A stretch of 37,527 bases of DNA, taken from contig NZ_FMXA01000017.1 in NCBI RefSeq assembly GCF_900103425.1, forward strand, positions 1-37,527, in the 5' to 3' direction. The first letter of the stretch is position 1. Every line of letters begins with the position of its first letter. Shown piece after piece: positions 27,038 to 34,781 of the stretch. The position numbers and the translations under genes were made by a program. Under the pieces are notes generated by a model. The model had not been told where the DNA came from, ran no database searches, and saw only the letters and a list, made by a program, of their open reading frames with translations. This DNA is from Dialister histaminiformans. Its GTDB lineage: Bacteria; Bacillota; Negativicutes; Veillonellales; Dialisteraceae.

Positions 27038-27068
27038 AAAAGACAGTTCATACAGATATCAGTAAAAA

Positions 27069-27112
27069 CCCTGAAACGAAAGCTATGGATAATCTTTCGT
27101 TTCAGGGTTTTT
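27069..27112 (+). terminator. terminator of the dnaX-ybaB-recR-bofA operon
   Basis: Perfect 14-bp stem (arms 27069-27082 and 27094-27107), followed by TTTTTATATTTTT on the plus strand. Confidence 0.92.
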
Positions 27113-27123
27113 ATATTTTTGCA

Positions 27124-27159
27124 GCATAAAAGCCGGGGCTGATTCCCTGGCTTTTATGC
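27124..27159. terminator. second hairpin between convergent operons
   Basis: An 11-bp perfect outer stem (arms 27124-27134 and 27149-27159) with an inner GGG/CCC pairing. TTTT lies inside the stem rather than after it. It sits 79 bases downstream of the minus-strand AAA+ cluster and could end that transcript. Confidence 0.55.
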
Positions 27160-27237
27160 TGTCACAGATTCATTGCTGTTTACGCTGAAGACCTGCATCC
27201 TCCACGCGTAATCAACAAGCTGCATCCTGCCTTATCA

Positions 27238-27726
27238 TTATCGGATAACCGATACAGTACCATCTTCGTAAATCCCCCGGCAGCAGTCCTGATAAACTTC
27301 TACACAGGTATATCCGCCAAAGAGAGCGAGATTCCTTGCCTTTTCCAGACTATCCGGCATGGCTTCACCGGTGCGGTAATGATAAATAATATTCTGATTC
27401 AGATCCAGAGTATGTACCTCATAATCTCCGCCCAGATGACACACCGCAACAATTCCCAGCAGGATATCAAACAGATGACGGTCTCCCATTTCTTCCTGCA
27501 AGATGTCTTTGATTTCTTCATAAAGATGGGAGTTCATGTTCGTTCCGCCGGCATCAAGCCTGGAAATAGCCTGCATATAGGCCTCACTTCTTGGTTTTCT
27601 CAGCCTTAGGCTGATTTCCTCTGATGAAAGCTGTCTCTGGTTTTCCGCCTGCATGGTCTGGCTTTCCAGTACTGACTCCTGCTTCAGGGCAGCCCCTTTC
27701 TTTATAATCATTCTTGGCTTAAACAT
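27238..27726 (-). CDS. unrecognised 162-residue protein of the AAA+ cluster
   Basis: I do not recognise a family. The N-terminal third is basic and polar (MFKPRMIIKKGAALKQ). The middle is helical (YEEIKDILQEEMGDRHLFDI), and the C-terminal half looks like a compact alpha/beta domain (LGGDYEVHTLDLNQN, GGYTCVEVYQDCCRG, TVSVIR) with three cysteines, at residues 140, 147 and 148. No signal peptide or membrane span is present. AAGGAGG lies in the last codons of the AAA+ gene, eight bases before the ATG, and the stop-to-start gap is three bases, so it is coupled to the ATPase and is the last gene of the cluster. Confidence 0.75.
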   Translation of the reverse strand: MFKPRMIIKKGAALKQESVLESQTMQAENQRQLSSEEISLRLRKPRSEAYMQAISRLDAGGTNMNSHLYEEIKDILQEEMGDRHLFDILLGIVAVCHLGGDYEVHTLDLNQNIIYHYRTGEAMPDSLEKARNLALFGGYTCVEVYQDCCRGIYEDGTVSVIR

Positions 27727-27729
27727 AAA

Positions 27730-29352
27730 CTATACCTCCTTATGCCTGATAAGGACACGGCGTACAGACGGTGCCGCCCTGGATGGAAGAGCCTCTTCCC
27801 CGATAGGTCTTCCTGACGCCGGAACTGCCCTTTCCTTCCCCCAGTTCCTTATATTATTGATTTTCTCCGGACTGGTTTTCGACAGAGGCACCACATTGGA
27901 GAATGTAGATGATATTTCCTCTTCATCCAGTACCAGATCCGGCTGCGCCACCGTATGATATGCCAGTTCGCGCACTGCAGATTCCAGATCGGCGCCTGTA
28001 AAGCCTTCTGTGATTTTAACTATATGTTCAGCAAACGCTTCATTGGATGCAAAGTCCAGATGGAGATATTTCTTAAAATACAGTGACAGGATGTCCTTTC
28101 GCTCATCCGCTGTCGGAAGATCTACAAAGAACAGTTCATCAAAACGTCCCCGGCGGAGAAGTTCTGATGGAAGCATGGATACATCATTCGCTGTAGCTAC
28201 CACAAATACGGATTTTTTGCATTCCTGGAGCCAGAAGAGGAACTGTCCCACCATACGGGTAGATACCCCTCCATCGTTGGATGAACCGGCACCGGAAAGC
28301 CCCTTTTCAATTTCATCAATCCAGAGAATGCACGGAGCCACATTTTCTGCCGTGGTCAGTGCGTCTTTCAGCTGCTGCTCTGACTGGCCTACATAACTTC
28401 CCTGCACAGTGGCAAAATCCAGCCGGTACAGCGGAAGTTTCCAGCTGGCCGAAATCGCCTTGGCCGACATGGATTTACCGCATCCCGGCACCCCAACCAG
28501 GAGAATCCCTCTCGGCGGTTGCAGATGCAGTTTTTTCATTACTTCCTTTTTCTCCGGTTTTAACAGTTCCTTCTTCTCGTCCAGCCAGTCGCGCAGGCCC
28601 TTAAGCCCCCCTACATCCTTCATCGCCGGATCCACATCAATACGTTCCAGACCGGAAATATTGGAAAACAGACGGTTTTTGGCGGAACGCACTTCAGCCA
28701 TATCCTCTTTTTTCACAATGCCTTTGGCCAGAAGCGCCGACATAACATTTGTCGCCTCTATCTGGGTAACCCCGGCCAGTGTGGCTGCCGCTTCCTTCAC
28801 ATCAGAATCATCCCACTCAATAGTAACCTGACTCCGGTTTCCATCCAGCTGTCCCTTGATAAGGGCATACATCTCTTCTTCATCCGGCATATCCAGCGTA
28901 ACGATAAGACCATGCCGCTGCAGGGTATTCCATACGGAATTGTTATAAAAGACAATGACGGTACCATACATTTCCGACGCCAGGGATATAAGGTCCAGTA
29001 TACGCTGTGAATCCCCGTTTTCTCCGCTGATATCCGGCACTTCCGTAAGGACCATGGTCTGATTCAGCTTTTGATCCTGGCGAAGCAGTTTAACCGTAAA
29101 ATCCATAGCCGAAAGGACAGATGAACCGGTATTCCCTACCGCCTGATTGGTAAAGAGATTATATACGCCCTTGGACATAGTATGGGCATAAAAGCTCTTT
29201 TCATCCAACCAGCCTTCCTGTACCAGTTCGAGAGATACATCGCGTATCATATCCAGTGCTCTTGCCGTTTCAATAGTTTTCAGGACAATAAGCGGAATTC
29301 TTGCTATCAGATATCGTTTCAGCAGACTTGCCGCGTCTTTCTTATTACTCAT
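27730..29352 (-). CDS. Ycf46-like AAA+ ATPase
   Basis: This 540-residue protein has an N-terminal domain of about 240 residues (LLKRYLIARIPLIVLKTIE start, typical of Ycf46-type proteins) and a classical AAA+ module. Walker A GVPGCGKS is at 287-294, Walker B ILWIDE at 342-347, a sensor-1 region VVATAND and paired arginines LLRRGRFDE follow. The C-terminus adds a short basic tail (LPSRAAPSVRRVLIRHKEV). Such ATPases form hexamers that remodel partner proteins; the substrate is unknown. Its start overlaps the preceding gene by four bases (ATGA) and the next gene follows after three bases, so partners are probably the cluster proteins. Confidence 0.85.
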   Translation of the reverse strand: MSNKKDAASLLKRYLIARIPLIVLKTIETARALDMIRDVSLELVQEGWLDEKSFYAHTMSKGVYNLFTNQAVGNTGSSVLSAMDFTVKLLRQDQKLNQTMVLTEVPDISGENGDSQRILDLISLASEMYGTVIVFYNNSVWNTLQRHGLIVTLDMPDEEEMYALIKGQLDGNRSQVTIEWDDSDVKEAAATLAGVTQIEATNVMSALLAKGIVKKEDMAEVRSAKNRLFSNISGLERIDVDPAMKDVGGLKGLRDWLDEKKELLKPEKKEVMKKLHLQPPRGILLVGVPGCGKSMSAKAISASWKLPLYRLDFATVQGSYVGQSEQQLKDALTTAENVAPCILWIDEIEKGLSGAGSSNDGGVSTRMVGQFLFWLQECKKSVFVVATANDVSMLPSELLRRGRFDELFFVDLPTADERKDILSLYFKKYLHLDFASNEAFAEHIVKITEGFTGADLESAVRELAYHTVAQPDLVLDEEEISSTFSNVVPLSKTSPEKINNIRNWGKERAVPASGRPIGEEALPSRAAPSVRRVLIRHKEV

Positions 29353-29804
29353 TTAGCCTCCTGTAAATCATTAATCCGATGATTCTGCAGCAGATGGGAC
29401 ATTATGCCCGAATGATCTCTTCTCGCACTTTCCTCCAGCGCATGTTGCGCCGCATCGGCCGCCTGATCCACTGCCTCCGGAAATTTTAACCGGATACTTT
29501 CCGGCAATGCCGGAATATATACTGCATCCTTAAGTTTCTCTAAATCGTCTTTCAATCTGGTCAGCGCTGTTTCTATCCCCGCTTCATTATGTGCCTCAGC
29601 CTGATTCCTTTCAAAATCTTCCATAATAGCCTTATACCGCATTTTTATTGCTTCTTCCAGGCGATAACTCAATCGGGTTAGAGGCGTCTGTGAACAGGGG
29701 ATACAGCCGTTTTTCATCGCTGTGATAACTTCGTCATCATCTTTCCTCACTGCGAAATCCCGAAGAATGGGAATCCATTCTGCATAAAATTCAGGCGCTT
29801 TCAT
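29349..29804 (-). CDS. unrecognised 151-residue helical protein of the AAA+ cluster
   Basis: This protein is mostly helical and charged: KAPEFYAEWIPILRDFAV at the start, then EEAIKMRYKAIMEDFERN and TALTRLKDDLEKLKDAVY, consistent with coiled coils. I recognise no family. The frame is open 15 codons further upstream, but AGGAGG eight bases before the ATG at 29804 gives the start. It overlaps the upstream 56-residue gene and the downstream ATPase gene by four bases each (both ATGA), so the three are translationally coupled. A structural or adaptor role for the ATPase is plausible but unproven. Confidence 0.75.
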   Translation of the reverse strand: MKAPEFYAEWIPILRDFAVRKDDDEVITAMKNGCIPCSQTPLTRLSYRLEEAIKMRYKAIMEDFERNQAEAHNEAGIETALTRLKDDLEKLKDAVYIPALPESIRLKFPEAVDQAADAAQHALEESARRDHSGIMSHLLQNHRINDLQEAK

Positions 29805-29971
29805 TTTGATGTCCTCCTGACTACCTGGCGGGGAGGCACCAGATCCCACGATGGAAGCGCTGTTATCCCATTGGCCTTTTTTGTTTGGATACTCTCTTCT
29901 TTATTTATTTTTCCTGGATTTTCTGTTTCCACCGGTTTCAATGTGCTAAATGCACTGTGTTTCATTTCCAT
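29801..29971 (-). CDS. 56-residue small protein with WDLVPP motif in the AAA+ cluster
   Basis: This short gene starts at the ATG at 29971, nine bases after the stop of the membrane-protein gene. It ends in a TGA that overlaps the ATG of the next gene (ATGA). The product is polar with a lysine-rich middle and a C-terminal motif LPSWDLVPPRQVVRR. The end resembles the C-terminal tail of the cluster's ATPase (LPSRAAPSVRRVLIR) in having LPS followed by prolines and basic residues, as if both were docking tails. The ribosome binding site is modest (AGGTG). The exact fit between its neighbours is the main evidence that it is real. Confidence 0.68.
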   Translation of the reverse strand: MEMKHSAFSTLKPVETENPGKINKEESIQTKKANGITALPSWDLVPPRQVVRRTSK

Positions 29972-29980
29972 AGCATTCAC

Positions 29981-31546
29981 CTAATTTCTGCGAATTCTTT
30001 TTCCCAGATTAAGATAGTTATCAGGATTCATTTCAGCGATAAACTGACGGGTTTTCCGACCCACTGCTGTATATCTGGCATAATAATCACGAAAATCTGC
30101 AGTTTCCGCCATAGCTTCCCGGATAATGTCTTCTACACTGTCACTCGTATGCTGCGCTTCCCTGTCGATAATCCTTCGGTTTCCCATAGCTTTTAAATAG
30201 TAAACAACCGGAAATATAATAAGCCCTGCCCCCAGGGAGGCTGCAAACATCTCCATATTTTCATGCAGGAACCGAGTCAGATAATATGCCGCTGCCAGCA
30301 GAATCGCACCTCCAAGTATTCCGCCAATCAATCCCAATATGGCAATGGCAATAATCAGAATAAGCACGCTGACCCCTAGAAAGTGATTTGCAAAAATCCA
30401 GGCACCTCCGAAATACACAAGGCCGGCCACTCCAGCCAGAAGACCGTCAGCCACTACCGATTGCCGTATCCAGGTATAGGCCTCTCTTGCCTCCTTATGA
30501 ACCGGAGCAAAAGTTTCCCGGAACTGCGCAATAACTGCCGGTTCATCCAGCCCATTTCGGATCGTGTATTCAAACCTATAGTTCTGTCGCAGAAACTGGT
30601 ATCGGACCTGGAAGGAAATAAGGGCTGGAACCTTCCTGATTCCTTCTCCTGCCACATCTTCATAAGCATTACGGATCCATCGTGCTGATGAAGCTACGAT
30701 AAAACGTCCCGCATTAGCATTTAATGCAAAGGTATCCGTATCTCCCCAGTCCTGTGCAGCACAGGTCAGCAGAGAACTGTAATCTGAATGTATATCGACC
30801 CATTCAGCACCAGACACTTGGGAAGTCACAAAAATTTCCAGCCACTGTTCCAGCTTATCTTCCTGCTTTACCCCCGCATCCGGAGCTTCCATAAGATGTT
30901 GCAACCGTTCAAGCAGTAACTCATGAATTCTTGCCCCTTTCAACAGTTCTTCTGCGTTCGTCTGATTTGGAAGCACATTAAGCTGCTTAAAATGCAGAAT
31001 CTCGGGTAACGCTGCCTGCTTGCTAAGGCCTTTCATGAAATTTTTCCATGCATCTTCCTGGGCTTCTTCCACTGCCGGATTTTCGGCCAGTTCGCTCCCC
31101 CAGCGTGTCAAAGTATCTGAAATCTCATTAACCATCTCAGTAGATAAGAAACCTGCTGCCATCATATTGAGAATCAATATAAATCCTGCATAGACCTGCT
31201 GTGCATTCTGTTCCTGCATAAACTGTGCAATCCAGAGTTCTGCCGCTTCCATGCGCTCGTTTTTTACACAGAACAATGAGAAAAACAAAGCGGTCTTCTC
31301 CCGATTAAGTGTCAGTGCCTTCTGAAGAGTGGTCTCTGCATTATTTCGTTCATCTGCATACCAGTACATCATGGCCGCCATAGCATAGGCCAGCCAGAAA
31401 TCAGAATAATGAATCAGCAGATTCTTAGCCTGATTTTCTGTATCCTGCCGTGTAAAAATTCCTGAAGAAATGTTTCTGAGAATTCCCAGAAACATTTCAT
31501 TCAACTCATTCCTGTCAGTTAAAACATTCGACGTATCAGATGCCAT
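29981..31546 (-). CDS. membrane protein with TPR-like N-terminal region, head of the AAA+ cluster
   Basis: This 521-residue protein has an N-terminal half made of amphipathic helices (NQAKNLLIHYSDFWLAYAM, NNAETTLQKALTL; about 35-130) that resemble tetratricopeptide-type repeats. A mixed region (240-350) follows, then three or four membrane segments (about 366-386, 390-422 and 433-451) and a cytoplasmic-looking basic tail ending RIRRN. I do not recognise a named family. The start at 31546 is set by AAGGA five bases upstream; the longer frame has no ribosome binding site. It leads a five-gene operon and may anchor the complex to the membrane. Confidence 0.75.
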   Translation of the reverse strand: MASDTSNVLTDRNELNEMFLGILRNISSGIFTRQDTENQAKNLLIHYSDFWLAYAMAAMMYWYADERNNAETTLQKALTLNREKTALFFSLFCVKNERMEAAELWIAQFMQEQNAQQVYAGFILILNMMAAGFLSTEMVNEISDTLTRWGSELAENPAVEEAQEDAWKNFMKGLSKQAALPEILHFKQLNVLPNQTNAEELLKGARIHELLLERLQHLMEAPDAGVKQEDKLEQWLEIFVTSQVSGAEWVDIHSDYSSLLTCAAQDWGDTDTFALNANAGRFIVASSARWIRNAYEDVAGEGIRKVPALISFQVRYQFLRQNYRFEYTIRNGLDEPAVIAQFRETFAPVHKEAREAYTWIRQSVVADGLLAGVAGLVYFGGAWIFANHFLGVSVLILIIAIAILGLIGGILGGAILLAAAYYLTRFLHENMEMFAASLGAGLIIFPVVYYLKAMGNRRIIDREAQHTSDSVEDIIREAMAETADFRDYYARYTAVGRKTRQFIAEMNPDNYLNLGKRIRRN

Positions 31547-31589
31547 AGTAATCCTTCCGGAATAAAATATATACAATAATCTTATATTC

Positions 31590-31619
31590 AGTATAAGACA
31601 ACAGAGAGAAATTTTACAA
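31590..31619 (-). promoter_or_regulatory. promoter of the AAA+ cluster
   Basis: TTGTAA (31614-31619), 18-base spacer, TATACT (31590-31595) on the minus strand. It lies after the dnaJ terminator and about 45 bases upstream of the first gene. Confidence 0.55.
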
Positions 31620-31662: not shown

Positions 31663-31704
31663 GCTAAAAAGTGGTTACCGATAATTATATCGATAACCAC
31701 TTTT
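31663..31704 (-). terminator. dnaJ terminator
   Basis: A 16-position stem with one mismatch (arms 31667-31682 and 31689-31704), followed on the minus strand by a T run, ten bases after the dnaJ stop. Confidence 0.85.
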
Positions 31705-32918: not shown

Positions 32919-34781
32919 TTACTTCTTGTCGTCGTCAACAACCTTGTAGTCTGCATCTACGACATCATCTTTACCATTCTTAGCGTTCTGCTGGCTCTGT
33001 GCCTGTCCCTGCTGCTGTGCCTGAGCCTGCTGAGCCTGCTGTGCCTGCTGGTACAGCTTTTCAGTCAGTTCATGAAGCGGCTTGGTCAGTGCATCTGCAT
33101 CGGCCTTAATCTTTTCTGTATCATCGCTCTTCATGGTTTCCTTAAGCTTAGCTACTGCATCATTAACTTCCTTAACCTTTGCCGGATCGGCCTTATCGCC
33201 AAGGTCCTTAATGGTCTTTTCAGCCTGATAAATCAGTGCTTCTGCATTATTCTTAGCCATAATGGCTTCCTTGCGCTTCTTATCTTCCTCTTCATGAGCC
33301 TTAGCATCATCCTGCATTCTCTTGATTTCTTCATCAGAAAGTCCGGAAGAAGACTTGATATCAATCTTCTGTTCCTTGCCTGTGCCCAGATCCTTAGCAG
33401 ATACATGTACAATGCCGTTAGCATCAATATCGAAAGTTACCTGAATCTGCGGAACTCCTCTTGGTGCCGGCGGAATATCAGAAAGTTCGAAACGGCCAAG
33501 GGTTTTGTTATCTGCAGCCATTGGACGTTCACCCTGCAGTACATGGATATCAACAGATGGCTGATTATCTGCTGCAGTGGAGAAGATCTGAGACTTGGAT
33601 GTCGGAATGGTTGTGTTTCTCTTAATCATGGTTGTGAATACACCGCCCAGGGTTTCAATCCCCAGAGACAGCGGAGTTACATCCAGCAGAAGGACATCCT
33701 TAACTTCACCCTTAAGTACACCTGCCTGAATAGCTGCACCTACGGCAACGGATTCATCCGGGTTAATTCCCTTATTTGGTTCCTTGCCAAATTTATTCTT
33801 AATCAGATTCTGAACTGCCGGGATACGGGAAGAACCGCCAACCAGCAGAATCTTTTCAATATCATTATTGGTTACGCCTGCATCGCGCATAGCAATGTCG
33901 ATTGGATCAATGGTTGCCTGTACCAGATCTGCAGTAATGCGGTCAAATTCTGCACGGGACAATGTAGCATCAAAATGAACCGGTGCACCATTAGAATCCA
34001 TAGTAATGAATGGCAGGTTGATTTCGGTGTTCAAAACGCCGGAAAGTTCAATCTTAGCTTTTTCTGCAGCTTCCTTCAGACGCTGATTGGTCATTGGATC
34101 TCTCTTAAGTTCAAAACCATTCTGCTTCTTGAAAGTATCCGCAATCCAGTCCATAACGCGGGCATCGAAATCATCGCCACCCAGATGACCGTTACCGTTG
34201 GATGCTTCTACTTCGAATACACCATCTGCAAGATTCAGGATAGATACATCGAATGTACCACCGCCCAGGTCATATACCAGTACACGGTGTTCACCTTCAC
34301 CCAGCTTGTCCAGACCATAAGCCAGCGCGGATGCGGTTGGTTCATTGATGATACGCAGTACATTCAAACCAGCGATACGGCCGGCATCCTTAGTTGCCTG
34401 ACGCTGACTGTCGGTAAAATAAGCCGGGCAGGTAATAACCGCTTCTGTTACCTTTTCTCCCAGATATGCTTCTGCATCTGTTTTCAGCTTCTGAAGAATC
34501 ATAGCGGAAATTTCCTGCGGGGTATAGCTCTTTCCATCAATATTTACCTTATAGTCGCTACCCATATGACGCTTAATGGATACAACGGTACGGTTCGGGT
34601 TGGAAACTGCCTGACGCTTTGCCAACTGGCCAACCAGAATTTCACCAGTCTTTGAGAAACCTACTACAGAAGGAGTAAGTCTGGAACCTTCCGCATTCGG
34701 AATAACTACAGGTTCCCCGCCTTCCATAACCGCAACTACAGAGTTTGTAGTACCAAGGTCAATACCAATAACTTTAGACAT
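32919..34781 (-). CDS. dnaK: chaperone protein DnaK (Hsp70)
   Basis: This 620-residue protein carries the Hsp70 nucleotide-binding signatures [10 protein letters not shown] (5-14), [14 protein letters not shown] and [14 protein letters not shown], then a substrate-binding domain and helical lid. The tail has a Gln/Ala-rich low-complexity stretch (about 580-600) before the [15 protein letters not shown] end. AAGGAGG lies nine bases before the ATG. It acts with DnaJ and GrpE in protein folding. Confidence 0.98.

Follow-up and report, generated by a model that had tools for sequence, protein, structure and literature searches.

The described systems closest to the locus analyzed here are the Cdc48/p97/VCP-like ATPases, the Ycf46-type ATPases, the IetAS anti-phage system and the tripartite α-pore proteins SmhB, AhlB and MakA. 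The locus is a set of five minus-strand genes between dnaJ and bofA in a 37,527-nucleotide stretch of Dialister histaminiformans DNA (contig NZ_FMXA01000017.1, positions 1 to 37,527; this whole stretch is called "the window" below), and it encodes a membrane protein, a small protein, a helical protein, an AAA+ ATPase and a 162 amino acid (AA) protein. These genes are almost certainly one functional unit, which is mobile accessory cargo inserted between dnaJ and bofA and which appears to be undescribed within the literature and libraries searched (a literature search found no paper on this gene set). The closest PDB sequences to the window ATPase are archaeal and eukaryotic Cdc48/p97 proteins, which have its Walker, pore-loop and arginine-finger motifs in common, but the window protein has a single AAA module and a different N-terminal half, and it scores 124 bits against the 803-bit cut-off of the NCBIfam CDC48 model. 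The Ycf46-type ATPases are alike in overall layout and 32–40% identical over most of their length, and to that extent an earlier sequence-only reading was right to call the window protein "Ycf46-like"; however, they lie on a branch separate from the clade of the window ATPase (support 1.0), have other partner genes and lack the terminal tail described below. A Ycf46/DUF2997 cluster was ruled out because of this separate placement, and none of the five window proteins matches DUF2997. IetA has a related AAA module (80 bits in NCBIfam, 106 bits in PADLOC), but IetAS was also ruled out, since the window ATPase reaches only 80 of the 510 bits of the IetA cut-off, none of the five proteins matches the subtilisin-like protease IetS, and the locus contains four other genes. 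No family in Pfam, NCBIfam 2026, PADLOC or PHROGs covers the four proteins other than the ATPase, as the sequence-only reading had supposed; Pfam searches with the complete membrane, 162 AA and helical families gave scattered coiled-coil-type matches or nothing, and PDB sequence profiles gave generic coiled coils and helices only, or nothing.

The five genes span positions 31546–27238 and have, in gene order, 521 (membrane), 56 (small), 151 (helical), 540 (ATPase) and 162 codons, with intergenic gaps of 9, –4, –4 and 3 bases, base for base as first described. They are an insertion, because the bofA–dnaJ site is empty in relatives: in G001, a genome from the same genus, and in G003, from a different genus of the family, these two genes are 85–93 bp apart with nothing between them, and the neighboring pairs recR–bofA and dnaJ–dnaK are unchanged. 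The membrane, helical and 162 AA genes were found in none of 11 other genomes of the family, and in a first sample of 59 other genomes of relatives the set was present only in Veillonellaceae bacterium Marseille-P2974 (G022, loci L034/L038), where all five genes are present and their order is kept. Between the flanks, no direct repeat of ≥9 bases that might represent a target-site repeat was found. Base composition was ruled out as evidence of recent foreign origin, since the G+C content of the cluster resembles that of its flanks; the empty site serves instead. The arrangement is more than chance, because all five genes recur, equally tightly spaced, in other genera and phyla, and the junction between the small and helical genes is –4 or –1 in 29 of 43 loci, which points to coupling. 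Such spacing cannot show stoichiometry, and the proposed complex of fixed stoichiometry does not follow from it. The cluster is probably its own transcript, given the probable dnaJ terminator that precedes it (table 1). As to the single promoter proposed for it, a site TTGTAA-18-TATACT is indeed present just upstream of the 521 AA gene, whose ATG is preceded by GGAAGG, but such promoter-like sites are no commoner in the window than in shuffled sequence, which makes the promoter weak evidence by itself.

Across 84,980 species genomes, a scan detected ATPases of the window type, up to 69% identical to it, in Firmicutes, Betaproteobacteria, Moraxella, Bacteroidota, Actinobacteria, Fusobacterium and one Eremiobacterota bin. 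The common layout in their neighborhoods is membrane–small–helical–ATPase; the 162 AA gene follows the ATPase in most Firmicutes of the window's branch, precedes the membrane gene in Proteobacteria, Bacteroidota and Paenibacillus-type bacilli, and in some copies, Mollicutes-like and actinobacterial ones, is missing or escaped detection. In a tree of 140 ATPases all those of the cassette fall into one clade with support 1.0, whose 65 members span Firmicutes, Proteobacteria, Bacteroidota and Actinobacteria. The membrane gene adjoins the ATPase in 57 of these 65, the remaining eight being on cut contigs or in loci where the simple open reading frame (ORF) caller took the wrong frame or strand, and it adjoins none of the ATPases outside the clade. 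The small and helical genes likewise adjoin clade ATPases nearly wherever the contig allows, and never the others, so relatives that carry the ATPase without its partners, the finding that would have told against a fixed gene set, were not encountered in the clade. Among 380 Negativicutes genomes the 162 AA family occurs in 19, the membrane family in 17 and the helical family in 18, with all three in 15; in an even sample of the phylum (398 genomes) the set is present in only two, one of them the genome of the window itself. The set seems to decay as well, since three genomes (G060, G064 and G189) have fragments or stop-bearing copies. That the five genes are one unit follows from this co-inheritance across phyla together with the tight spacing and the private peptides described below, and the earlier idea of a fixed, membrane-associated gene set with dedicated small partners is supported. 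In a deeper branch (L092, L093, L095, L096 and L100) three membrane-protein paralogues of ~530–600 AAs flank the genes for the small protein, the helical protein and the ATPase, so the membrane complex there may be a mixed one.

The ATPase has a classic AAA module (3.9e-29 with Pfam AAA) with Walker A (GVPGCGKS, AAs 287–294), Walker B (LWIDEIE, 343–349), sensor 1 (N389), arginine fingers (R400/R403) and a pore loop (GSYVGQSE, 318–325). All of these positions are invariant or nearly so across the clade, where Y320 of the pore loop is near-invariant and G322 invariant. It has no protease domain, and from its sequence it is likely a Cdc48-type hexameric, ATP-driven unfoldase or remodeller.

The membrane protein was modelled from a 45-sequence alignment with a mean predicted local distance difference test score (pLDDT) of 86.7. 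The model has a TPR-like helical solenoid (AAs ~10–135), a helical middle, a β-hairpin (310–329), a long helix (335–385), a hydrophobic hairpin within ~379–455 and a second long helix (431–505); an N-terminal heptad region found in most relatives has been lost in the window protein. The description "TPR-like membrane protein" thus fits the N-terminal third, but leaves out the β-hairpin, the hydrophobic hairpin and the two very long helices. The match to Pfam TPR_8 is below the cut-off (E 0.054), and the head aligns to TPR solenoids with VIA Z scores of 7–8, the best matches being PEX5, P58IPK and CHIP. A hydrophobic stretch of ~40–50 residues is present near the C-terminus of every full-length family member checked. 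In a Foldseek search the top-ranked PDB chains were SmhB, AhlB and MakA, with E values of 0.02–0.3 (best 0.016) and probabilities of up to 0.85, none of which is significant (E >0.01, TM-score <0.3), and the VIA comparison with XaxA gave a middling Z score of 6.9 (root-mean-square deviation (rmsd) 10.6, 257 residues aligned). These α-pore proteins also have long helices around one hydrophobic hairpin, but the window protein has in addition a TPR-like head and an ATPase partner, and there is no sign of export.

The counterpart of the 56 AA protein ends, in almost every locus and across phyla, in LPxWD(L/I)xPPxxxxRR or close to it, so it is not a chance ORF. In several Firmicutes (L041, L048, L050, L051 and L054) the small ORF before the helical gene has an extra N-terminal, zinc-ribbon-like part (CxxC...CxxC) that is absent in the window. 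The 162 AA protein was modelled with a pLDDT of 81, and a fold search with the model gave no match below E 0.05; the best VIA match, a chemoreceptor sensing domain (Z 4.2, rmsd 4.3, 102 residues aligned), was treated as noise.

Unrelated proteins of the set share a terminal motif. A C-terminal tail of the form [KR][KR]x[VIL][VILF] is present in 42 of 61 clade ATPases (for example KTRKVLV and GKRSIII, and in the window VRRVLIRH, with VRRVL at AAs 530–534), where 4.7 are expected from shuffling the same residues; it was found in none of 92 ATPases outside the clade and in four of 677 other nearby ORFs. The helical proteins, which are unrelated to the ATPase, have the same tail in 18 of 49 cases (GRKIIF, RRILL), with 2.2 expected, and a looser form (MARIIL, MPKPML) opens 25 of 43 of the 162 AA proteins and 50 of 677 other ORFs. 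In the membrane proteins the strict pattern occurs in three of 64, near chance, and no claim is made for them. Because the sequences are related and therefore not independent, the counts are given as conservation in two to three unrelated families and no p-value is attached. The tails may be docking peptides.

Several copies are carried by mobile elements. In the Streptococcus satellite phage Javan368 the whole set makes up the terminal genes; in other S. oralis genomes it follows rpsD, beside an integrase remnant (rpsD and the integrase were named by eye from the sequence). Further copies are on a plasmid of Komagataeibacter (26 kb) and a replicon of Comamonas (643 kb), and an Enterococcus copy has a phage integrase nearby. 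A scan of IMG/VR with a wider alignment found two cassette-bearing contigs; on one predicted virus contig (L157) the cassette adjoins genes that read as serine recombinases. On another predicted viral contig (L158:11713–17328) the genes beside a cassette copy encode a J-domain-like protein, a prokaryotic E2 (Prok-E2_E) and a ThiF E1 protein that resembles a JAB peptidase in its N-terminal part, placing a ubiquitin-like pathway next to a Cdc48-type ATPase. PADLOC gave several defence-family matches among 147 neighbors, including Wadjet, PD-Lambda-1 and pAgo, which are not counted as proof since they come without a control set.

The hydrophobic hairpin and a Cdc48-type ATPase without a protease make it likely that the set is a membrane-docked remodeller; complex formation, membrane topology and remodelling we infer. 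The ATPase, as a hexamer, would thread or pull a substrate by way of its YVG pore loop, and the 521 AA protein would use its hydrophobic hairpin to hold the machine at the cytosolic side of the cell membrane, its TPR-like head and its long C-terminal helix both lying in the cytosol. As dedicated adaptors, the 56, 151 and 162 AA proteins may connect the ATPase with the membrane protein and the substrate, in part through short peptides such as LPxWDxxPP of the small protein and the basic-aliphatic tails of the ATPase and helical protein. The set would probably serve in conflicts with phages or with mobile elements of other kinds, and in these the membrane protein would be the effector or anchor whose state the ATPase sets. 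An accessory role in conflict fits better than housekeeping because of the patchy spread, the decay, and the satellite and plasmid carriage; defence is the leading, though speculative, use. The whole reading, a membrane-anchored AAA+ remodeller that is a mobile accessory unit with a likely use in conflict, we hold tentatively, at somewhat under an even chance. Several observations weigh against it: the 151 AA protein of the window lacks the terminal tail, most neighbors are housekeeping genes, satellite carriage fits any cargo, the G+C content of the insertion does not stand out from its flanks, and no component reaches the cut-off of a known defence protein in PADLOC or NCBIfam, where only AAA-module cross-hits were obtained.

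A more specific possibility, rather unlikely as a whole, is an unfoldase-gated membrane effector against phages, in which a peptide-docked, Cdc48-type unfoldase would arm or restrain the membrane-hairpin protein in the infected cell, a system that would be undescribed, widely shared and mobile. The same Cdc48-type ATPase, with its intact pore loop and no protease, would also suit quality control or extraction of membrane proteins, in which it would pull misfolded or misplaced proteins from the membrane and the TPR-like head would receive the clients, an accessory function that helps only under some stress. The head's best VIA matches bind peptides or clients, albeit at Z scores of only 7–8, but a set that is rare, patchy, decaying in three genomes and carried by a phage satellite is not what quality control would lead one to expect, and we consider this somewhat unlikely. 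The single hydrophobic hairpin between long helices in all members, the identity of the top Foldseek chains and the three paralogues of the deeper branch would be in keeping with an α-pore-type effector, held or armed by the ATPase and acting in the producing cell or on rivals. However, those fold matches are not significant and the VIA scores middling, long helices with a hairpin are a common arrangement, and the hydrophobicity equally fits a plain anchor, so this is improbable. Finally, the position of the set as terminal cargo of Javan368 and its plasmid copies could mean that it serves the mobile element itself (satellite packaging, interference with a helper phage, or maintenance) and not the host; most copies are chromosomal, many without a recognizable element, and they are spread across phyla, which makes this very improbable.

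Four of the five families are nameless in the libraries searched, yet the set has kept its layout in four or more phyla and is carried by a phage satellite. A defensive role for the membrane-anchored remodeller would add to bacterial immunity a design that pairs an unfoldase with a membrane hairpin; without such a role, it would be a bacterial counterpart of membrane-docked Cdc48 machines. The set is small and self-contained, laboratory strains can be used to test it, and the exact residues to mutate are given by the terminal tails and the LPxWDxxPP peptide.

Table 1. Features of the five-gene locus and its flanks, with positions in the window
Feature	Position	Strand	Basis
162 AA α/β protein; N-terminus MFKPRMII, core GIVxxCxLGxxYEVHTLDL	27238..27726	-	structure model, family
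540 AA Cdc48-type AAA+ ATPase	27730..29352	-	Pfam, NCBIfam, PDB sequence match, alignment columns
151 AA helical protein; starts YxEW	29349..29804	-	family alignment
56 AA small protein; low-complexity N-terminus, conserved C-terminal motif ITALPSWDLVPPRQVVRR	29801..29971	-	cross-locus comparison
521 AA membrane protein	29981..31546	-	structure model, hydrophobicity; family across L038-L100
Promoter-like site TTGTAA-18-TATACT	31590..31619	-	consensus match only
Pair of strong hairpins with A/T tracts, between the last gene and bofA; probable bidirectional terminators (27063..27161)	27063-27114, 27121-27161	.	sequence reading and folding
Strong hairpin after the dnaJ stop, ahead of the cluster; probable terminator of dnaJ	31666..31704	.	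sequence reading and folding

Other ATPase clusters came to light in the same comparisons. In two "type 2" loci (L035:8318–12045 and L036:6641–10725), which have housekeeping surroundings, an ATPase 35–38% identical to that of the window is in tight order with a 497–514 AA protein and a 241–337 AA protein; like the cassette ATPase it stands next to a protein with a hydrophobic, glycine-rich region, but it falls outside the clade and its cluster has no match to the membrane, helical or 162 AA families. The 497–514 AA protein has a possible PD-(D/E)xK-like stretch (NSVDVVI...YQLKFG) and a C-terminal glycine-zipper region, and the 241–337 AA protein of L036 has tandem repeats. The Marseille-P2974 genome carries both the cassette and the type 2 ATPase. 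A contractile injection system was considered for L103–L117, which resembled tail clusters by gene size, and was rejected when Pfam gave ATP synthase, a radical SAM protein and DUF2997. At L112:7316–14588 DUF2997, a 179 AA protein and a radical SAM protein are encoded together with a Ycf46-like ATPase, immediately upstream of the ATP synthase genes. In the window itself a 527-codon ORF (33072–34655, plus strand) runs antisense through dnaK and is read as a by-product of codon bias.

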